Below, one piece after another: positions 50,200-60,696 of a stretch of 64,000 nt of DNA. Location: NCBI RefSeq assembly GCF_004023665.1, contig NZ_SAUF01000002.1, positions 1,116,001 to 1,180,000 on the forward strand, given 5' to 3'. The translations under genes were made by a program, and so were the position numbers. How positions within the stretch are numbered: the stretch's first letter is position 1; every line of letters begins with the position of its first letter. The notes under the pieces are model-generated. The model ran no database searches and was not told the origin of the DNA. It saw nothing but the letters and a program-made list of their open reading frames with translations. Origin of the DNA: Afifella aestuarii (GTDB taxonomy: Bacteria; Pseudomonadota; Alphaproteobacteria; Rhizobiales; Afifellaceae).

Positions 50200-51584
50200 G
50201 CATGAGGACACAAAGCCAGGCTGACAGCGGTGCGACGCACGCAAGCGGCAACGTGGCGACGACGGCGATCTTACTGGCCGTGATGATCGCCGCCGGTGCG
50301 ATCATCTATTTTACCAGCGGCTTCACTCTCGGAAAAAGCGCCATTGGCTTTGACGGGCTAGACGTATGGCTGCAGGCGAATGGCGTAGAAACTCTGCCTT
50401 ATCTTGATCAGACCGAAGACGGGCCGCGCCAAGCGTTTCGCATCGTACCGATCTATGACAACGACCTTCAAGACGAGGCGACCGCGCAGACCGATGGCCT
50501 TGAGGATGTCCGCGGCAGCCTGGCGCCACGTCCCATGTCTCTTCGGGCTTTCGAGGGCAAGCTCTATGACGGGCCGGTTTTGGCCGTCCTGCCGAAATGG
50601 CGCAGTGGTATCGTCTCTCGCGGGAGAGCCCACCCCGATCTCCTCATTCCAGCAGACCGTATCGCCTTTTATGGGAAGGCAGTCACGCGGCCACAAGCGG
50701 TGAACTTCAAGTCGCAGGGCATGGAGGCCTCAGCTTTCGGGGATGTTTCTAACAATGAGGTCGCTCTCTACGCACCGCAGGTGCTCGGGCCAGATCTCGA
50801 CGAGCTCTGCGTGCCGCTCCTCACCATCAAGGATGTTGGTACGCTTCTCGGGGATTGTGGCGAGGGGATCTTCGGCGACGGCACGGTTCTCTACGTTCTC
50901 TCCGATCCCGATCTTCTCGACAATCACGGCCTTGGGAACGGCGAAAACGCTGCGATCGCGCTGGCCGTCGTGCGGCAGCTCGCGGGTGAGCTCCCTGTCT
51001 ATATCGACAATGAGGCTGATGAAACGCAGCCGGGCGACGAAGAGATTGCCGGCAAGGACACCCACGAGCGCACGATCGCCGACCTTGAGCGTTTTTTCCG
51101 TTATCCGTTCTCGCTGTTCTGGGTCGGCGTCGTGCTTGCCTCCGGCCTCGCCCTTTGGCGGGGCAGTCGGCGCTTCGGGCGCCCGGTCGAAGATCATCTT
51201 GACGAAGCCCGCTCGGCTTCCAAGCAGCGCACCATCGCCGCCTCACGGCGCATCCTCATGCTGTCAGGAGCCGAGGCGGCGCTCATCGAAACCTATGTCA
51301 AAGACCGGCTGGAGGCGCTCGCCTCGGAGCTTCTCGGCAGCCATCGGCGCCGCCCCGAGCGCTCCACCGCGGCGAGCACCAATGAGTCACGCCCCGGCGA
51401 GCGCAATTTCGAGGCATTGCTTCCACTGATCCGCAACCGCTCGGCCGAACTTGGCGAGCGGCTCGCAACGGCCTACGGGGCGGTCACCGACCAGCAGGCG
51501 GAACAGCGTGCCCGGTTCGAGGCGCTCGCCGCCTTCGACGCCATTATTCAGGAGACACAGCATGAATTTGGACGAACTGCGTAG
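50196..51584 (+). CDS. DUF4350-like membrane protein of the MoxR cluster
   Basis: A 462-residue protein with an N-terminal membrane helix (about residues 17-37, VATTAILLAVMIAAGAIIYF), a large probably periplasmic DUF4350-type domain (LPYLDQTEDG... LYVLSDPDLLDNHGLGNGENAAIAL near residue 245, a hallmark of the family), a second membrane helix (SLFWVGVVLASGLALW near 310) and a cytoplasmic helical tail. Start is GTG 50196 overlapping the upstream stop, or ATG 50202. Its end overlaps the MoxR gene by 23 bases. Confidence 0.8.
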   Translation: MSMRTQSQADSGATHASGNVATTAILLAVMIAAGAIIYFTSGFTLGKSAIGFDGLDVWLQANGVETLPYLDQTEDGPRQAFRIVPIYDNDLQDEATAQTDGLEDVRGSLAPRPMSLRAFEGKLYDGPVLAVLPKWRSGIVSRGRAHPDLLIPADRIAFYGKAVTRPQAVNFKSQGMEASAFGDVSNNEVALYAPQVLGPDLDELCVPLLTIKDVGTLLGDCGEGIFGDGTVLYVLSDPDLLDNHGLGNGENAAIALAVVRQLAGELPVYIDNEADETQPGDEEIAGKDTHERTIADLERFFRYPFSLFWVGVVLASGLALWRGSRRFGRPVEDHLDEARSASKQRTIAASRRILMLSGAEAALIETYVKDRLEALASELLGSHRRRPERSTAASTNESRPGERNFEALLPLIRNRSAELGERLATAYGAVTDQQAEQRARFEALAAFDAIIQETQHEFGRTA

Positions 51585-52518
51585 CCTGCGCGACAGGGTG
51601 GCCACCGAGATCGGAAAGGCGGTTCAAGGGCAGGACGAGGTCGTCGAGCTGCTTCTCGTCTCGCTTTTCGCCAGAGGACATTGCCTTTTGGAAGGACCGC
51701 CGGGAACGGCGAAGACGCTTCTGGCCCAGAGTCTGGCGGCTGCGCTTCACCTTGACTTCAACCGCATCCAGTTCACTCCGGATCTTATGCCCGGCGATGT
51801 CATTGGCTCCAACATCTTCGACTTCAACGCCAGCCGCTTCAACTTGGTCAAGGGGCCGATCTTCACCGACATCCTGCTGACTGACGAGATCAACCGCGCA
51901 CCCCCCAAGACTCAGGCCGCACTGCTACAGGTGATGAACGAACGCAATGTCACCATCGACGGCGTCGACTATCCGGTTGGTGATGTCTTCTTCACTGTCG
52001 CTACCCAAAATCCACTGGAGCAGCAAGGCACCTATCCGTTGCCCGAGGCTCAACTCGACCGTTTCCTGTTTAAGCTGGTGATTGATTTTCCCGACGAGGC
52101 GGCTGAATTGTCGATCCTCAAGCGCCATGCCGGCCAGGCGCTTGAGCATGACGCGCGCAAGGCGGCGATCATGCCCGTGGCGGGGCTTGAGGAGATCCGC
52201 GCCGGTCAGAAGTTGATCGATGAGATCCGGCTAGACGACGAGATCCTGCGCTACGTCCTGGCGCTGGCCCGCGCCACGCGCAGCGAGGCCGAGATCGCCC
52301 ACGGTGTCTCAACCCGCGCCGCCGATGCCCTTTGCGGCGCGGTGCGCGCCAAGGCGGCCCTCGACGGTCGGGACTACGCTATCCCCGACGACGTCAAGCT
52401 GCTCTTTGTTTCGACGATGCGTCACAGGATCGTGCTTTCGCCCACCGCCGAGATTGAGGGCCGCAGTCCGGCCGCGGTGCTGTCTTCGGTGCTCGAGCAA
52501 ATCCCCGCGCCGCGCTGA
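51562..52518 (+). CDS. MoxR-family AAA+ ATPase
   Basis: A 318-residue AAA+ ATPase of the MoxR group, thought to act as a chaperone for assembly or activation of membrane or vWA-like partners. Walker A is GPPGTAKT at 45-52, Walker B DILLTDEINRAPPKTQ near 100-115, sensor 1 ATQNP near 150 and a C-terminal lid with the RSP motif typical of the family. No signal peptide. Its stop overlaps the DUF58 start (TGATG), the usual MoxR-DUF58 pair. Confidence 0.94.
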   Translation: MNLDELRSLRDRVATEIGKAVQGQDEVVELLLVSLFARGHCLLEGPPGTAKTLLAQSLAAALHLDFNRIQFTPDLMPGDVIGSNIFDFNASRFNLVKGPIFTDILLTDEINRAPPKTQAALLQVMNERNVTIDGVDYPVGDVFFTVATQNPLEQQGTYPLPEAQLDRFLFKLVIDFPDEAAELSILKRHAGQALEHDARKAAIMPVAGLEEIRAGQKLIDEIRLDDEILRYVLALARATRSEAEIAHGVSTRAADALCGAVRAKAALDGRDYAIPDDVKLLFVSTMRHRIVLSPTAEIEGRSPAAVLSSVLEQIPAPR

Positions 52519-53840
52519 TGCGTCCTTCGCGCCGTCTCCTGATTGTCGCCGGGCTGCTGGTTGCCGCGTCCCTCGCGATCCTCGCATTCGCGCAGGTGCC
52601 GCCGGCGACCATCATCGTCGCCTGGGGCGCCCTGATGGCTGCGCTCGTTATCGACGCGACGACGACGCCCGGCGCCAAACGCTTTACCGTCGAGGCGCCG
52701 GAGACCCGAGAGTTTTTCGTCGGCGAGACGACGAAACTGCGTTTCGCTCTGGTAGCACGGGAGAGGGTGAGCCGCGTTCCTGCAGCGGGCGGTCCGGTGC
52801 GCTTTCGCCTCGCTTGGCCGTCTGGCATCGAGGGCCCGGCGGAATTTGGTGTCTCGGATGCTTCGCAAGACGCCAGCGCCACGATCACGGTCAGGGGCGT
52901 GCGGCGCGGTGACTACCGGCCCGGCGAGGTTGCGGTGTTACGCCTGGGTAGGCTGAAGCTTCTCGACCATATCGCTTTCTATCCTGTCGCTACCCGGCTC
53001 GTCGTCACACCCAATCTCAGGCGCGTGACTTCCGGAGACATCGACTTGCAGATCGCGACCGAAACCTTCGGCGCTCGCGCGGCCCTCAATCGCGGGGAAG
53101 GTTCGGAGTTTCATCAGCTGCGCGACTTCGTATCAGGCATGGACAGTCGTGCCATCGACTACAAGCGGTCAGCTCGTCACCGCAATCTTGTTGCCCGTGA
53201 GATGCGGGCCGAACGCAACCACAACATCGTGCTTGCCATGGATAACGGCCATCTCATGCGCGAGGAGATCGCCGGGCTTGCCAAGATCGATCACATGATC
53301 GACTCCGCCATGGCGCTCGCCTGGGCTGCTGTGAAGGGTGGTGACCTCGTCGGGCTCTACGCCTTCGACGCGCGCCCCCGCATCTATGTTCCACCCGGCG
53401 GCGGCATGAAAGCCTTCTCCCATCTCAGAACCCGGGTTGCAGAGCTCGAATATCGCTCGGTGGAAACCAATCATACCCTGGCTATGACCCATCTCGGCCA
53501 GAAGTTGAACCGGCGCAGCCTGGTAATCGTGTTCTCCGACTTCGTCGACACGACGACCGCCGAACTCCTGGTCGAGAACGTGGCGGTGCTGAACCGGCAT
53601 CACGTCGTCGTCTTCGTTTCCCTTCGCGACCCGCTCCTGTCGGACATGACACGTCACGCCGCGAGCGATCTGGGCGCCGTGGCGAGCGTGGTGGCCGCCG
53701 CCGGATTGGAACGCGAGCGCCGCGCCGTTTTAGATCGCCTATCCCGGCTCGGCGTCTTCGTCATCGATGCGCGGCCGGGTGAGGTGAGCGCGCGGCTCAT
53801 CTCCACCTACCTGAGAATCAGGGAGCGGGAGCTGATATGA
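52518..53840 (+). CDS. DUF58 domain protein (vWA-like partner of MoxR)
   Basis: A 440-residue membrane-anchored protein with two N-terminal helices (residues 7-24 and 30-45), a beta-rich extracytoplasmic-like middle (VRRGDYRPGEVAVLRLGRLKLL), and the DUF58 core GSEFHQLRDFVSGMDSRAIDYKRSARHRNLVAREMRAERN followed by NIVLAMDNGHLM and VFSDFVD, a degenerate vWA fold. DUF58 proteins pair with MoxR ATPases. Its stop overlaps the SpoIIM gene by ATGA. Confidence 0.92.
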   Translation: MRPSRRLLIVAGLLVAASLAILAFAQVPPATIIVAWGALMAALVIDATTTPGAKRFTVEAPETREFFVGETTKLRFALVARERVSRVPAAGGPVRFRLAWPSGIEGPAEFGVSDASQDASATITVRGVRRGDYRPGEVAVLRLGRLKLLDHIAFYPVATRLVVTPNLRRVTSGDIDLQIATETFGARAALNRGEGSEFHQLRDFVSGMDSRAIDYKRSARHRNLVAREMRAERNHNIVLAMDNGHLMREEIAGLAKIDHMIDSAMALAWAAVKGGDLVGLYAFDARPRIYVPPGGGMKAFSHLRTRVAELEYRSVETNHTLAMTHLGQKLNRRSLVIVFSDFVDTTTAELLVENVAVLNRHHVVVFVSLRDPLLSDMTRHAASDLGAVASVVAAAGLERERRAVLDRLSRLGVFVIDARPGEVSARLISTYLRIRERELI

Positions 53841-54895
53841 CGACAAGCGCCGACGTTATCCGCTCCAGCAGGTTCAGGGCTGAGCGCGAAGCCGGGTGGC
53901 AACGCCTTGCTGCGATTGTGGCTGCTGCCGAGAAGCGTGGACTATCGAAGCTTGATTTCGATGATGCGCGCGATCTCGTGCCGCTCTATCGCCAGGCGAT
54001 CGCGTCCCTTTCCGTCGCCCGGGAAATTTCTCTCGATGCCAGCGTGGTCGATTATCTCGAAAGCCTCTGCGCCCGTGCCTATTTGCTGATCTACGCGCCG
54101 CGCGAAACGCTCCGCGGGCTGTTTACGCGCTTCTTCACCCGCAGCGCGCCCCAGGCCGTCCGTCGCTCGGCGATGGTTATTCTCATTGCCTATGTCGTCA
54201 TGACCATCGGCGCCGTCGCTGCATATCTGCTCGCGATGAGCGACCCCACCTGGTTCTACGCTTTCGTGCCGGAGAGTCTTGCCGGCGGACGCGGACCAAG
54301 AGCCAGCGCCGAGGCGCTTAAGAGGCTTCTTTACGACAAGGAGGGTGCGGAGCTAGGTGGGCTCGGCGCCTTCGCCAGCTACCTCTTCTCGCACAATACC
54401 CAGGTCGCCCTTTTTTCCTTCGCGCTCGGCGTCGTCGTCTGTGTGCCAAGCCTTCTCCTTGCTCTCTACAACGGTGCTGTCCTTGGGGCTTTCACGGCGA
54501 TCCATGCTCAAAAGGGGCTCGCGCTCGATTTTGTCGGCTGGTTGTCTATTCACGGCGTCACTGAGCTTTCCGCCGTCGCGATCGCCACGGGGGGAGGATT
54601 ATCGCTGGGGCTTGCCGTGCTGTTTCCCGGACAGCGCAGCCGTGCAGCGGCCCTGCGCAAAGCGGGCAGGGACGCTGCCAAGCTCGCCCTGGTTGCCGCC
54701 TTGATGCTGGTCGTCGCCGGCGTGCTGGAATCCTTCGGCCGCACTCTCGTCACCAGCCTCTGGGCGCGTATCGTCATCGGATGGGGGCTGGGCGTCTGCT
54801 GGCTCGCCTGGTTCAGCCTCTGTGGTCGCAAGCGCGGTCCGGTCGGCGCGATCGATCAAATGGTGCCAGCGGACCGGATCGGGGAGGCCAGCTGA
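53837..54895 (+). CDS. SpoIIM-family (stage II sporulation protein M-like) membrane protein
   Basis: A 352-residue membrane protein related to Bacillus SpoIIM, although this organism is not a spore former by context. An N-terminal cytoplasmic helical part (LSKLDFDDARDLVPLYRQAIASLSVAR) precedes about six membrane helices; LFSHNTQVALFSFALGVVVCVPSLLLALYNGAVLGAF and GWLSIHGVTELSAVAIATGGGLSLG are family motifs with conserved H and E. It is the usual third element of MoxR clusters in Gram-negatives. Confidence 0.9.
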   Translation: MTTSADVIRSSRFRAEREAGWQRLAAIVAAAEKRGLSKLDFDDARDLVPLYRQAIASLSVAREISLDASVVDYLESLCARAYLLIYAPRETLRGLFTRFFTRSAPQAVRRSAMVILIAYVVMTIGAVAAYLLAMSDPTWFYAFVPESLAGGRGPRASAEALKRLLYDKEGAELGGLGAFASYLFSHNTQVALFSFALGVVVCVPSLLLALYNGAVLGAFTAIHAQKGLALDFVGWLSIHGVTELSAVAIATGGGLSLGLAVLFPGQRSRAAALRKAGRDAAKLALVAALMLVVAGVLESFGRTLVTSLWARIVIGWGLGVCWLAWFSLCGRKRGPVGAIDQMVPADRIGEAS

Positions 54896-55980
54896 TGGGT
54901 TGGCCGAAGAACCGGCGCGAAAGGAAGGCTCGCGAACGCATGGTCCGCGCCGGCGAGGTGAAACAGGGCAAGGTTCTCTCGTTGATCCCGCCCGAAGGCG
55001 CGCCGCTCAACCTTGCGGTCGCCACCATCGCGGCGCGTTGCGGCGCCCAGCTCATCGACTTCATTATCACCACCCTCGCCACGATCGTGCTCTTTCTCGT
55101 CATTTCGGTCCTCTCGCGGCCGGGAATGGCAGGCGAAAGTGCCATCGGCGGATTGATCGTGCTGTTGTTGGGCGCGCCCTTCTACATGCTGTGCGAGCTG
55201 TTCATGAACGGCCGCACACCGGGCAAACGACTGGTCGGCATTCGGGTGGTCTCGCGGGATGGAGCCGGGCTTTCCACCCATCAGGTCGTCATGCGCAACC
55301 TGACGAAGGAGGTGGAGGTCTTCCTGCCGATCAGCTTTCTTCTCACGTTCCAGACTATGCCGAGCTGGTTGGTGATTTTGATGTTCACCTGGCTTGCGGC
55401 GGTCTTCGCAGTGCCGATCGTCAACCGCGCCAACCAGCGGCTCGGCGATCTTGCCGCCGGCACCGCGGTCATCGTCGATCCGCGTCCGGTGCTGCTCGAA
55501 GACGTGGCCACCAAGGCCGATCAGGCAACCCTGGAACGTTTCGTCTTTACGAGCGCCCAACTCGACGTTTACGGCGCGTATGAGCTGCAGGTGCTGGAAA
55601 AGCTGCTCAGGCCTCAGGCGAGAGCGACCGCAGCGCCATCTCCCGGCAAGGAGCGGCTCAATGGGCTCACTGCCGTCGGCCAGCGGATCCGTGCCAAGAT
55701 CGGCTATGATGAAAGCGTGGAGCCGAAGGATGAGGAAGCGTTCCTACGCAGCTTCTACGTCGCCCAGCGGGGGTATCTCGAAAAGAAGAAGCTCTTCGGG
55801 GAAGCGCGCGCTAACAAGTTCCATCACGGCGAACCGACCGCGTCCGCCGTCCTCGCGCCAGCCCCGGGGCCGATCCGTTCCACGGCATCGCCTGCGGCGT
55901 CGAATGGCGCTGAAGGACCGGGACGCACCAACGAACCCACGAACCAGGTACAACATTCATCAACCAAGGGGCTGACATGA
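54895..55980 (+). CDS. RDD-family membrane protein
   Basis: A 361-residue protein. The RDD domain covers about residues 40-200: an Arg-containing first helix (AARCGAQLIDFIITTLATIVLF), NGRTPGKRLVGIRVVSRDG, and NQRLGDLAAGTAVIVDPRP. The C-terminal 160 residues are cytoplasmic and end in a low-complexity Pro/Ala/Ser tail. It overlaps SpoIIM by one base and the following membrane gene by ATGA. RDD proteins are common companions of DUF58/SpoIIM genes; the function is unknown. Confidence 0.9.
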   Translation: MGWPKNRRERKARERMVRAGEVKQGKVLSLIPPEGAPLNLAVATIAARCGAQLIDFIITTLATIVLFLVISVLSRPGMAGESAIGGLIVLLLGAPFYMLCELFMNGRTPGKRLVGIRVVSRDGAGLSTHQVVMRNLTKEVEVFLPISFLLTFQTMPSWLVILMFTWLAAVFAVPIVNRANQRLGDLAAGTAVIVDPRPVLLEDVATKADQATLERFVFTSAQLDVYGAYELQVLEKLLRPQARATAAPSPGKERLNGLTAVGQRIRAKIGYDESVEPKDEEAFLRSFYVAQRGYLEKKKLFGEARANKFHHGEPTASAVLAPAPGPIRSTASPAASNGAEGPGRTNEPTNQVQHSSTKGLT

Positions 55981-56717
55981 CGATAACCGACACTCCCACC
56001 GACAAGCCAAGCTTCGGCGTCGGCGCGCGCCTAGGGGAAACCTTCTCCATATTTGGAAAGCGCTTCGTCGTTTTCGCCGTCATCGGCGGTGTCGTCGGCG
56101 TTCTGGGCCAGGTGCCGTTCTTTTTCCTGATGGCGAGCGCGGGGCCGGGGGCCGAGGAGAACTTCGGCGTCATCCTCTTAGGTGCAGTTCCGCCTTTGAT
56201 CATCTATCAAGTGATGACCGGCATGCTGGTGCTGGCGGCCTACGACGCCAAGAGCGGACGGCCGATCCGTCTCGGCACCTATGTGATGAGTGCCCTCAAG
56301 CGCCTTCTGCCGCTGATCGTCATGGCGATCTTCGTCTACATTCTGATTGCCATCGGCCTCGTCTTGCTGATCGTCCCCGGCGTATGGGTGCTCGGCGTTA
56401 CTGCCGTCTTCGTGCCCGCCATCATGATCGAAGGTGCCGGCTTCGGAGCGGTCGGTCGTTCAGCCAGTTTGACCAAGGACTATCGCTGGCCCATCGTGCT
56501 GTTGCTCGTGGTCGTCTACCTCATCGCGTATGTGATTGCCTTTGTCATGGCAATTTTCGTCGGCCTCTTCGGCGGAGTGTTCCTGGTCGTCGCCCAGGGG
56601 CTCGTCAGCGGCATCACCACCTCGATCGTGTCCATTGCAGTGGCAATGACTTACGCGCGGCTGCGCGAGATCAAGGAAGGCGTCGGCTTCACCGACCTCG
56701 CCGAAGTCTTTGCGTAA
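55977..56717 (+). CDS. polytopic membrane protein, last gene of the MoxR cluster
   Basis: A 246-residue membrane protein with six hydrophobic segments. The ETFSIFGKRF start, VIAIGLVLLIVPGVWVLG near residue 130 and AVGRSASLTKDYRWPIVLLL near 160 are the pattern of glycerophosphoryl-diester-phosphodiesterase-membrane-domain / DUF975-like proteins (the LxxxGxxxVPGxx and SxxLTKGxR motifs). No enzymatic domain. It is probably the end of the seven-gene operon; the next gene is on the other strand. Confidence 0.78.
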   Translation: MTITDTPTDKPSFGVGARLGETFSIFGKRFVVFAVIGGVVGVLGQVPFFFLMASAGPGAEENFGVILLGAVPPLIIYQVMTGMLVLAAYDAKSGRPIRLGTYVMSALKRLLPLIVMAIFVYILIAIGLVLLIVPGVWVLGVTAVFVPAIMIEGAGFGAVGRSASLTKDYRWPIVLLLVVVYLIAYVIAFVMAIFVGLFGGVFLVVAQGLVSGITTSIVSIAVAMTYARLREIKEGVGFTDLAEVFA

Positions 56718-56871: not shown

Positions 56872-57549
56872 TCAGATCCGACGATCGAAGACCGAAGTTC
56901 CCTTCTTCAAGCGGTAAACCGCCGAGGGACGGTTGGCGCCAGGCATTCGCCGTTTCCCGCCCGTCTCCTCGATGAAGTCTCGTTCGAAGACCTTGCGCCG
57001 AAAGGCATCGATATTGAGCCTCTGGCCGAGCGCGATCTGGTAGATGTCGTGCAGTTCCGACAGCGTAAACTCCCGCGGCAGGAAACGCGCTGGCAGGTCG
57101 GAATAGGCGCCCTTGCCGCGCAGGCGCTTTAAAGCAGCCGACAAGATGAGATCGTGGTCGAACGGCATGCCACCTGCCTCTTCGACAGGCGTCAGCGTGA
57201 GCCCTTCGCGCGAGAGCGCGGGGCGAAGCGCTTCGATCGGCGAGAGCGAGAAATAGGCAACGCTCACCGACCATCCGCGCGGATCGCGGCCGGACCCGGA
57301 AAAGGTGGATAGCTGCTCGACGTACAGCTCGTTCAGCCCCGCTTTCTGCATCAAGACCCGCCGGGTCGTTGCGCCGAGATGGTCGTCCTCATCCACATGC
57401 ACATAGCCGCCGATCAATGCATCGGATTCCGCGAAAGGCTCCTTCTCGCGCCTGGCCCTCAGCACGCAGAGCCGCTCTTCATGGACCGTGAGGGGCACGA
57501 CGTCCACCGTCAGGATAGGCGCTTCAAACTTGGTTTCCATAAACGGCAT
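56872..57549 (-). CDS. NrtR-like Nudix-domain transcriptional regulator
   Basis: A 225-residue protein: an N-terminal Nudix-like domain (APILTVDVVPLTVHEERLCVLRARREKEPF...GGYVHVDEDDHLGATTRRVLMQKAGL) whose Nudix box is degenerate (the RExxEE glutamates are missing, with ATTRRVLMQKAG instead), followed by a C-terminal NrtR-type winged helix (REFTLSELHDIYQIALGQRLNIDAFRRKVFER). NrtR proteins sense ADP-ribose or related nucleotides and control NAD genes. Here it is divergent from the vWA/PurA-like pair, with a TATTA-GG-TAATA palindrome between. Start: ATG 57549 or 57540. Confidence 0.88.
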   Translation of the reverse strand: MPFMETKFEAPILTVDVVPLTVHEERLCVLRARREKEPFAESDALIGGYVHVDEDDHLGATTRRVLMQKAGLNELYVEQLSTFSGSGRDPRGWSVSVAYFSLSPIEALRPALSREGLTLTPVEEAGGMPFDHDLILSAALKRLRGKGAYSDLPARFLPREFTLSELHDIYQIALGQRLNIDAFRRKVFERDFIEETGGKRRMPGANRPSAVYRLKKGTSVFDRRI

Positions 57550-57550
57550 C

Positions 57551-57582
57551 TTGCATCTTATTAGGTAATATGCAAAATGCAT
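57551..57582. promoter_or_regulatory. NrtR-type operator cluster upstream of the vWA gene
   Basis: A perfect palindrome TATTA-GG-TAATA at 57559-57570 is followed at once by ATGCA-AAA-TGCAT at 57570-57582; TTGCAT at 57551-57556 also pairs with ATGCAA at 57570-57575. The stretch is AT-rich within GC-rich DNA and lies 2-33 bases before the NrtR start and about 62-93 bases before the vWA start, so it can control both. Confidence 0.7.
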
Positions 57583-57643
57583 TTAATCAGGCGGTGCTGG
57601 CAGGCAGCACAGGAGCCTCTCAGAACCAAGGAAGGAACCGGCC

Positions 57644-58534
57644 ATGGGGCACGGAAACTGGAGCGATCGGGACTGGGCGGTCTACGCCGCTCGTTCGGTC
57701 AGCGGTCGCAGCCGCTCGGAGCTTTTCGAGGCAAAGCGCATGAAGGACGCTTACGATCCGGCACAGATCAAGGTGAGGGAGTCCCGCGACAGTGCCGAGA
57801 ATCCAGAGGCGACGCCCATCATCATCGGTGTCGACGTCACCGGATCGATGGGCATTCTGGCCGAGGAGCTGGTGGTGAAGGGGCTGAACGAGGCCTTCAC
57901 TTCACTCATCGGCCGCAAGCCAGTCAGCGACCCGCATGTGATGGCAATGGCCATCGGCGATGCGCAATGTGACCGGGCTCCGCTACAGGTTACCCAGTTT
58001 GAAGCGGATTTGCGTATCGTCGAGCAACTCCGGCAGTTGTGGCTTGAGGGCGGTGGCGGCGGCAATGGAGGCGAGAGCTACTGCCTCGCCCACATCTTCG
58101 CCGGGCTCAAAACGGCGCATGACGCTATGGAAAGGCGCGGCAAGCGGGGCTTCCTGTTCACGGTCGGCGACGAACCGGTGCATGACGGGGCCACCCGCGA
58201 GCAGCTTTCGCGCGTGTTCGGCGCGGAGGCGCGCCAAGGTGTGACAGGCCGGGAGGCGGTCAGGCTCGCGAGCGAGAGCTACGAAGTATTCCACATCATC
58301 GTCGATGGCTCATATGCCGCGAACCACATTCGGGAGGTTCGCAGCTCGTGGGAGGCCATTCTGCCCGAGCGGGTCATCCATCTGAGGAACCCTGCCCAGC
58401 TTGCGCAAACGATCGTATCGACTATCGAGGCGGCGAGCATCCGTGCGCCGACCCATAAAGCCGGCCTCTCAGGGCTCCTTCCTGCTCCCCTTCGTCGCCG
58501 TCCCTGGGGTGGATGGGCCGGAGGCCAGCGATGA
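57644..58534 (+). CDS. von Willebrand factor A-like protein of the NrtR/PurA-like module
   Basis: A 296-residue cytoplasmic protein. After a 55-residue charged leader containing YAARSVSGRSRSELFEAKRM, a vWA-like fold begins with IIIGVDVTGSMG; D64, T66 and S68 form the DxTxS MIDAS metal site. A glycine-rich loop (LEGGGGGNGGES, residues 134-145) and FLFTVGDEPVHD (D176) follow. No signal peptide or membrane helix. A strong AAGGAAGGA site precedes the ATG. It overlaps the PurA-like gene by ATGA, so the two are coupled, and it probably acts as a metal-dependent protein-protein or nucleotide-linked switch. Function inferred only. Confidence 0.85.
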   Translation: MGHGNWSDRDWAVYAARSVSGRSRSELFEAKRMKDAYDPAQIKVRESRDSAENPEATPIIIGVDVTGSMGILAEELVVKGLNEAFTSLIGRKPVSDPHVMAMAIGDAQCDRAPLQVTQFEADLRIVEQLRQLWLEGGGGGNGGESYCLAHIFAGLKTAHDAMERRGKRGFLFTVGDEPVHDGATREQLSRVFGAEARQGVTGREAVRLASESYEVFHIIVDGSYAANHIREVRSSWEAILPERVIHLRNPAQLAQTIVSTIEAASIRAPTHKAGLSGLLPAPLRRRPWGGWAGGQR

Positions 58535-59733
58535 CTCGCGCTTGGGCAGTGATCGGCGCGAGCTATGGCGATGAAGGCAAGGGGCGGACAGTCGACTGGC
58601 TGGCCGCTTCCTCGGGGCCAAAAGCGCTCGTCGTGCGGAGCAATGGCGGTGCGCAAGCCGGACACACAGTCGAAACACCGAAAGGGAGACGCCATGTCTT
58701 CCATCATGTCGGATCGGGCACCTTCAGGGGCGCCCGCACGCATCTCTCGCGCTACATGGTGTCCCATCCGATCCTGTTCGCCGAGGAAGTGACGGCTCTC
58801 AGCCGCCATCTAGACTTGCCCGCGATCTCCGCCGATCCGCGGGGCTTCGTCACCACTCCGTTCGACATGATGGTCAACCAAGCCGCTGAGTTGGCGCGTG
58901 ACGGTGCCCGGCATGGCAGCTGCGGCCTCGGTTTCGGCGAGACTGTCGGCCGCTGCGAGACGGGCCCATACGCCCTGACGGTCGCGGATCTTTATCGACC
59001 AGGGTTGAAGGATCGGCTGATCGCAATCCGGGAGGAATGGCTGCCGAAGCGGCTGGAAGAGATGGACCTTCGCCCCGGCTTCGGCCCTCTTGCCTTCGCC
59101 AGCTCTCGGGATCTGCTGGACTGCTTTGTCGCACAATGCACCGAGTTCGCGCGCCGCGTGGGACGGCGGGACGATCCGCAGATCGGCGAGGAAGACACTG
59201 TGATCTTTGAAGCTGCTCAAGGGCTGCTCCTCGATCAGAACGCATCCGGCTTTCCCTTCGTCACCCGATCTAAAACCGGACTTGCCAATATCAGTGCCAT
59301 TGCGGCGGAAGCTGGTATCGAGAGCCTTGATGCCATATTCGCCTCTCGCTGCTATCTCACACGTCACGGGCGCGGGCCAATGGAAGACGAAAGGCCTATC
59401 AAACAGTGGTATGCGCTGGAGGATCCGACCAACCAGCCAAATCCTTGGCAGGAGACCATGCGCCACGGGCTTATCGATCCCGCAAAACTCGCTGATCGCA
59501 TCGCCTTGGACCTGGCCCGGAGCACAGTCCCGTGTCGTGCGTCTTTGGCGATGACCTGTCTGGATCAGGCGAAAAAGCGATTTGTCTGGCTAAGCGAGGG
59601 AGAGCCGAGAGAAGGCACAGAAGCTGCGTTTCTCGGCGCCATGGGGCGTGCGACCGGTCTTCCCCTAACCGTGTGCTTTTCCTCGCCCCGAAACGAATGG
59701 CACCGCGACGCAATTCGGACTTCGTCTTTCTGA
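58531..59733 (+). CDS. divergent adenylosuccinate synthetase paralogue (PurA-like)
   Basis: A 400-residue homologue of PurA, which joins aspartate to IMP with GTP. The N-terminal phosphate loop GASYGDEGKGRTVDW retains D14 and K17, and the HAGHT-equivalent QAGHT retains H45 (D13 and H41 of E. coli), but the adjacent N is replaced. GLGFGETVGRCETG (132-145) stands for GRGIGPAYEDK, FPFVTRSKT (241-249) for YPFVTSSNT, and LTRHGRGPMEDE (276-287) for TRVGAGPFPTE. It is shorter than PurA (about 430). It is clearly not the housekeeping purA and may act on another nucleotide. Start 58531 has GGAGG upstream and overlaps the vWA stop. Confidence 0.85.
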   Translation: MTRAWAVIGASYGDEGKGRTVDWLAASSGPKALVVRSNGGAQAGHTVETPKGRRHVFHHVGSGTFRGARTHLSRYMVSHPILFAEEVTALSRHLDLPAISADPRGFVTTPFDMMVNQAAELARDGARHGSCGLGFGETVGRCETGPYALTVADLYRPGLKDRLIAIREEWLPKRLEEMDLRPGFGPLAFASSRDLLDCFVAQCTEFARRVGRRDDPQIGEEDTVIFEAAQGLLLDQNASGFPFVTRSKTGLANISAIAAEAGIESLDAIFASRCYLTRHGRGPMEDERPIKQWYALEDPTNQPNPWQETMRHGLIDPAKLADRIALDLARSTVPCRASLAMTCLDQAKKRFVWLSEGEPREGTEAAFLGAMGRATGLPLTVCFSSPRNEWHRDAIRTSSF

Positions 59734-60118: not shown

Positions 60119-60597
60119 CTAGTGCCAGACCAACCGCATCAGGTTGTAGGCAAGGTTGGCCATCCCGATCTTCGCTTTCGCCCTGACGATTCCGATGGTC
60201 CTCACGAACAGCGCCATTGGCCCCTTCACACGCGCGAAGACGTGCTCGATCGCCGAGCGGACCTTCGATCGCCGGCCGTTGGCCTGCGCCATGCGCTCGC
60301 TCATCTGCCGCCCCTTCGGCGTATTCTGGTGGATGTCGGAGACGTGGCCGTGCTTCCACAGCCAGGCCTCGTTCTTCTTTGGGCGGTGAGCGGTGTCGGC
60401 CCAGACCCTGGAGCCGGTGTTGCGTCGGATGACCCGCTCGAGCTGCGCACCGTCATAGGCCACAGCATTCGTCACCGACCGGCCGGGATGAAGCCGCGAT
60501 GCCGGTCGATGCTGGCGTGGTTCTTGTAGCCGAAAGCCGGCACTGCGGTGTCGACCTGCTTCGGCTTGCCGTCCTCCGCCTTCTTGATTGGAGACTG
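60119..60597 (-). pseudogene. IS5-family transposase, truncated and frameshifted
   Basis: The C-terminal part of an IS5-type DDE transposase is recognisable: AVAYDGAQLERVIRRNTGSRVWADTAH, then RSKVRSAIEHVFARVKGPMALF and IVRAKAKIGMANLAYNLMRLVWH to the TAG at 60119. The preceding piece, PIKKAEDGKPKQVDTAVPAFGYKNHASIDRHRGFI, is in another frame that ends at a TGA at 60472, so a frameshift near 60475-60483 splits the gene. The N-terminal half is missing. It is therefore inactive. Confidence 0.85.
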
Positions 60598-60696
60598 CCC
60601 GGGAGAGGGCTAAAAAGGCCGGCACAAGCTGATGATGGGTGACCATCAAACTGCTCAGTCTAGCTTTCGCTGTTTGGCGGGGAGCGCGTTACGCCC

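Follow-up and report, generated by a model that had tools for sequence, protein, structure and literature searches.

The locus and the PurAL family

At positions 56872–59733 of the window, by which we mean the whole stretch of 64,000 nucleotides from Afifella aestuarii analysed here (contig NZ_SAUF01000002.1, positions 1,116,001 to 1,180,000), an NrtR-family regulator stands divergent from an operon encoding a vWA-fold protein and a relative of adenylosuccinate synthetase (PurA), which we call PurAL. The regulator gene occupies 56872–57582 on the minus strand. The vWA gene (57644–58534, plus strand) encodes a metal ion-dependent adhesion site (MIDAS) of the type D64-x-T66-x-S68, and its stop codon overlaps the start of the PurAL gene (58531–59733, plus strand) in an ATGA at 58531–58534. 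The PurAL product has 400 residues, with catalytic Asp14 and His45 and altered inosine monophosphate (IMP) and aspartate loops. Between the regulator and the operon lies an operator-like site (57551–57584), TTGCAT-N13-ATGCAA overlapping TGCAAAATGCATTT. The three genes, the MIDAS residues, the overlap and the length of PurAL had been proposed in a sequence-only reading of this DNA, and all of them stand after inspection of the sequence and comparison with Pfam. Given the ATGA overlap, translational coupling of vWA and PurAL would be expected. The identical four-base overlap is found in 9 of 115 loci, and in many others PurAL starts directly past the stop region.

The Pfam model Adenylsucc_synt matches PurAL at 2.6e-36 over the first two thirds of the protein only. 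The AlphaFold model of PurAL (pLDDT 94, pTM 0.93) has PurA as its best structural match in Foldseek (template-modelling score approximately 0.76), with PurZ behind (approximately 0.64). In a maximum-likelihood tree, built by a quick method with seven PurA and five PurZ references, a 100% branch parts all PurAL sequences, of phage and bacterial origin, from PurA and PurZ, and PurZ lies nearer to PurA than PurAL does. A separate orthodox purA is present elsewhere in the same genome (G000:C1:949262). PurAL is neither within orthodox PurA nor the only purA of this organism; a housekeeping role for PurAL was rejected because of this second purA and the altered aspartate loop. The earlier proposal of a PurA paralogue with a changed substrate side is thus supported by the tree and by the residue pattern described below. 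Judged by its sequence, PurAL adds to PurA and PurZ a third branch of their family, marked by a residue signature of its own and by a vWA gene that almost always accompanies it.

The signature was read from an alignment of 128 members. The catalytic Asp and His (Asp13/His41 in PurA, Asp14/His45 in PurAL) are retained in 128/128. The P-loop GDEGKG is kept, and its Lys, as well as the Glu and Gln equivalent to PurA Glu221 and Gln224, is conserved in every member. V273 of PurA is replaced by His in 128/128. The aspartate loop TTGRxRR is not preserved: T301 has become Gln in 128/128, R303 is lost (T/S/K or similar) and R304 is hydrophobic, with R305 kept and D333 mostly kept. N38 is replaced by Gln, and T129 by Cys or Val. 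The alignment therefore agrees with the sequence-only reading in that the catalytic residues of GDEGKG and AGHT are kept while the IMP- and aspartate-loop motifs are changed. In PurA, both T301 and R303 are part of the aspartate loop, and the arginine makes a further contact with the IMP ribose. The changes at these two positions suggest a different second substrate in PurAL, and perhaps a different ribose side, with 6-oxopurine activation probably kept. Because the catalytic Asp and His are retained throughout, PurAL is likely to be an active enzyme. In PurZ, the catalytic Asp is swapped for Ser (PMC12884076), as is the case in all five PurZ references; retention of the Asp in all 128 PurAL sequences suggests that PurAL probably acts on a purine without a 2-amino group. 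PurAL also matches phrog_1211, named 2-aminooxy adenylosuccinate synthetase, at 1.1e-52, and many phage records label it accordingly (for example L006:7280-8608 and L005:8025-9275; L numbers denote retrieved loci). This name is misleading, because PurAL keeps the catalytic Asp and falls outside PurZ.

The vWA partner and the carriers of the pair

The AlphaFold model of the vWA protein (pLDDT 88, pTM 0.87) was assigned by Foldseek to the Rossmann-type vWA/integrin I-domain fold, and D64, T66 and S68, together with D106, E144 and D176, are invariant among 67 relatives. A Pfam search with the protein of the window and a PDB sequence search with its family returned zero matches, and the family, phrog_2971 in PHROGs, carries no function. 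Proteins with vWA domains frequently act as assembly factors.

Phages are the main carriers of the vWA-PurAL pair. By tblastn, the PurA-like protein was found in 223 phage records (the weaker matches including a few orthodox PurA) and the vWA protein in 206, mostly the identical phages; those with both include Mycobacterium Bxz1-type phages and large phages of Rhizobium and Vibrio. In IMG/VR, scanned with profiles, there are 466 relatives of the vWA protein and no fewer than 547 of the PurA-like protein. Among the best 80 viral loci retrieved by vWA, 74 contain PurAL, and among the best 79 retrieved by PurAL, 75 contain vWA, several of the unpaired loci being short or end-cut stretches. The two genes share a strand, and in all measured pairs but two vWA is the upstream gene. 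With this reciprocal linkage in approximately 150 viral loci, a chance neighbourhood was rejected, and the partnership of the two proteins proposed from the sequence is borne out by other genomes, viral and bacterial. Pairwise distances in the two families also correlate (r = 0.71, with a permuted maximum of 0.21), a result that shared descent alone could give. No fusion of the two proteins was seen among the loci examined.

Immediately upstream of vWA, approximately 40% of loci carry a gene for a J-domain/kinase-like protein of approximately 340 residues, with weak but repeated matches to the DnaJ domain (best 1.1e-5) and to kinases (best 2.7e-8). In a Clostridiales copy, a zinc-ribbon-like start takes the place of its J part. 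A search for remnants of this gene found none in the window, and elsewhere in the genome it gave short J-domain matches only. In two phage clusters (28 and 9 loci), the same place is occupied by a methionine-rich protein of approximately 200–260 residues with no Pfam match (examples are L066:7252-7983, L004:6222-6935, L005:5777-6568 and L169:6512-7117). Clostridia-type copies have two tandem vWA genes ahead of PurAL (L016:6123-7982; L213:7505-9364).

We examined 22 bacterial loci besides that of the window, three of which are closely related Acetobacter (L013-015). NrtR adjoins 12 of them. Seven, namely L013-015, L217, L218, L219 and L220, have the layout of the window, with NrtR next to vWA-PurAL and no J/kinase-like gene. 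NrtR, the J/kinase-like gene, vWA and PurAL are all present in L008, L009 (where the NrtR frame is apparently broken) and L012, and also in L010 and L190, where the Nudix gene lies downstream and the winged-helix matches are weaker. NrtR is missing from L016, L189, L195, L196, L213-216 and L221, and L007, from Methylobacterium extorquens AM1, has neither NrtR nor the J/kinase-like gene. In the latter, on a megaplasmid, the vWA gene (L007:6231-6959) lacks the first 68 residues, including the MIDAS Asp, next to an intact PurAL; this cassette is possibly a decaying copy. Of the three-gene module put forward in the sequence-only reading, the vWA-PurAL core is therefore conserved, whereas NrtR is not a constant member.

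The cassette is rare and patchy, occurring in 1 of 5 species of the genus, 3 of 385 in the class and 6 of 399 in the phylum sample; a search of 291 genomes from the class to which L016 belongs gave five strong matches, and a single-sequence scan of genome contigs found only four relatives. Some bacterial copies are on plasmids, and their flanks are mixed, mostly ordinary genes rather than defence islands. A search of NrtR, vWA and PurAL with PADLOC returned no family at E ≤ 1. In a congener (G002), homology ends 12 bp past the yciC-like gene, before NrtR, indicating that the cassette sits in a variable stretch, although this comparison yielded no clean empty site. The rare spread, the mixed flanks and this break in homology fit an autonomous, horizontally moving cassette. 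Just upstream of it in the window is a same-strand run of MoxR-like ATPase, DUF58-like, SpoIIM, RDD and YciC-like genes (51451–56717). Approximately 0.4 kb downstream of PurAL, a decayed DDE transposase fragment (60122–60649, minus strand), whose matches are slightly under the Pfam cut-offs, accounts for the insertion-sequence relic noticed earlier.

NrtR and the links to NAD metabolism

The regulator in the window combines a degenerate Nudix domain, whose Nudix box is without the glutamates of the motif, with an NrtR winged helix (Pfam NrtR_WHD, 6.8e-16), and its orthologues adjoin the module in L013-015, L012, L008 and L217-220. The NCBIfam NtrR model matches it at 3.1e-45, yet below the cut-off of the model. 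Its match to NrtR of Shewanella oneidensis (SoNrtR; 3gz5, 4.8e-32) is closer than its match to AraR, which responds to arabinose (3.1e-24). The second Arg of its RDPRGW motif aligns with RDARGW of 3gz5 at the position of SoNrtR Arg98, which contacts ADP-ribose and is Gly in AraR (PMC4666351). Retention of this Arg is in line with the earlier suggestion of an ADP-ribose-type sensor. The identity of the regulator thus holds, but its 236-residue start does not: that start overlaps the operator-like palindrome, making a later Met likely, and the true start is probably Met12 (57549) or Met15 (57540).

TTGCAA-type motifs are found at the same position in L013-015, L012, L217, L218 and L219 and are not at the corresponding place in L008, L009 and L220. 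L008 (4976-5040) and L009 (4937-5000) have other inverted repeats instead (TTAGAC/GTCTAA and CTAACT/AGTTAG), which suggests a second type of NrtR site. The operator-like site of the window is the only one in the genome at up to one mismatch; one more site appears at two mismatches, which equals the control count, and 0.16 sites at up to two mismatches would be expected in the window. With a single close site, NrtR probably serves the vWA-PurAL operon alone. A role as regulator of a NAD (nicotinamide adenine dinucleotide) regulon in this genome was rejected on the same ground, other site forms not having been searched.

A second link to NAD comes from phages. Among the genes that recur around their cassette, NadM-Nudix is seen at 21 loci, Nampt at 18 and NADAR at 6. 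Besides NADAR, HIRAN-like and Thg1 genes are found there repeatedly (L004:5203-5859; L168:2632-3036; L076:14774-15553). For a test of Nampt proximity, 50 cassette-bearing records were chosen by length, from which two near-duplicates were then removed. Of the 21 records that encode Nampt/NAPRTase, 13 have it no more than 10 kb from the cassette, compared with 2.4 expected at random positions, and the median distance is 7.4 kb. The control was ribonucleotide reductase, which is about as frequent: it lies within 10 kb in 0 of 22 records, or 1 of 22 if the records are treated as circular, with 2.2–2.4 expected and a median of approximately 40 kb. NrtR in bacteria and nicotinamide salvage in phages are separate links, and both point to NAD/ADP-ribose metabolism. 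Rebuilding of NAD by phages against NAD-depleting immunity is established (PMC12774641, PMC13232231).

Interpretation and relation to known systems

We tentatively favour a reading in which an NrtR-controlled vWA-PurAL cassette is tied to NAD/ADP-ribose metabolism and PurAL, with vWA, couples a 6-oxopurine nucleotide to an amine that is not aspartate. The divergent NrtR would repress the cassette, and a rise in ADP-ribose or a related NAD breakdown product would be the most likely inducer. Like PurA acting on IMP, PurAL would probably begin with a GTP-dependent phosphorylation at the 6-oxo position, here of a purine nucleotide without a 2-amino group. In a second step it would probably attach an amine different from ordinary aspartate, and the purine may belong to a larger NAD-derived molecule. 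The vWA protein, a near-obligate partner, would probably be a MIDAS metal-dependent assembly or activation factor, assisted in many relatives by the J-domain/kinase-like protein that is absent here. The cassette may in this way help the cell or the phage to withstand NAD cleavage.

Several observations weigh against this reading. Approximately half of the bacterial copies are without NrtR, and effectors differ within the NrtR family, that of AraR being arabinose (PMC4666351). No Nampt was detected in 28 of the 50 PurAL phage records. None of 20,000 random-position trials reached the 13 of 21 observed for Nampt, but this p-value is optimistic because the phage records are related to unknown degrees; the contrast with ribonucleotide reductase is large. 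PurAL of the window departs from the C-terminal GPTR motif (SSPRN). A bolder and unlikely version would have vWA-PurAL respond to NAD cleavage by making either a repair product or a modified form of NAD or ADP-ribose, as a new aminated purine dinucleotide, derepressed by ADP-ribose in bacteria and acting beside Nampt and NadM in phages against NAD-depleting immunity.

PurAL could instead be a divergent adenylosuccinate synthetase whose altered loop still binds aspartate, giving extra AMP during infection or stress and, through it, the ATP that NAD synthesis needs. This agrees with the fold and catalytic residues of PurA, with the retained R305 of the aspartate loop and with the expected need for ATP of phages with Nampt or NadM nearby. 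Nevertheless, T301 and R303 are replaced, the change of V273 to His is universal, the host already has purA and the near-constant vWA partner is left unexplained, which makes it somewhat unlikely. We regard as quite unlikely that PurAL and vWA, with or without the J/kinase-like protein, form a complex for nucleotide sensing or chaperoning, to which PurAL contributes the binding of a purine nucleotide while its product is irrelevant. A J-domain and degenerate kinase partner, together with the general behaviour of vWA proteins as assembly factors, would suit such a complex, whereas the catalytic Asp and His, the P-loop Lys, and the Glu and Gln are present in every member, as for an active enzyme.

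A role of the bacterial cassette in anti-phage defence or abortive infection seems highly unlikely to us, although the rare and patchy distribution of the cassette in genus, class and phylum, its plasmid-borne copies and its phage relatives are what a defence unit might show: PADLOC gave no match, the other copies are flanked by mixed and mostly ordinary genes, and the same gene order is carried by phages. Synthesis of 2-aminoadenine precursors for modified DNA by a PurZ-type enzyme draws on the PHROG name and the match to phrog_1211, and is hardly credible given the Asp of PurAL in place of the PurZ Ser, the separate clade with PurZ nearer to PurA, and the MazZ/DatZ-type companions of S-2L PurZ, which are not among the recurrent neighbours of PurAL. 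A role in Z-DNA synthesis was accordingly rejected as close to excluded.

Approximately 190 sequenced mycobacteriophages carry the vWA-PurAL pair, as do hundreds of contigs from large phages, and many records give its enzyme a misleading name. NAD/ADP-ribose metabolism is at present actively contested between phages and bacteria. The proposal that links the pair to it lends itself to direct tests on purified vWA and PurAL and on laboratory phages already at hand. Among phage homologues of PurA, those outside PurZ have been counted, not studied (PMC12884076). Our literature search, which covered searchable papers only and is not proof, found no description of the vWA-PurAL pair, its residue signature or its NAD context.

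Among known systems, ADP-ribose-responsive NrtR and AraR share with the regulator of the window the domain layout, the degenerate Nudix box, the divergent position and a palindromic operator-like site. The regulator keeps the SoNrtR arginine that AraR is without and, in contrast to known NrtR, has its close site only at the vWA-PurAL operon and not at NAD genes, as far as this form of site is concerned. TerY-type vWA-kinase(-phosphatase) systems likewise pair vWA with a kinase-like protein, as many relatives of the cassette do; in the window, the kinase-like gene is absent and the vWA family is without a Pfam match, and no phosphatase or Ter genes were noticed near the cassette, although no search was aimed at these families. 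In the case of phage NAD reconstitution (NARP1; Nampt and NadM), many PurAL phages encode Nampt or NadM close to the cassette, whereas PurAL and vWA are not known members of that pathway and the window has neither of its genes. PurZ and PurZ0 of the 2-aminoadenine pathway in Z-phages are, like PurAL, phage-borne PurA relatives under a common PHROG name, but they have Ser for the catalytic Asp that PurAL keeps, and PurAL forms its own clade and occurs also in bacteria under NrtR. With PurA itself (PF00709), PurAL shares the fold, the GDEGKG and GHT motifs, Glu221, Gln224 and Thr239, and mostly the GTP-site Asp333 and GPxR; it differs in the substitutions at V273, T301, N38 and T129, the loss of R303, its own clade and a near-constant vWA gene.

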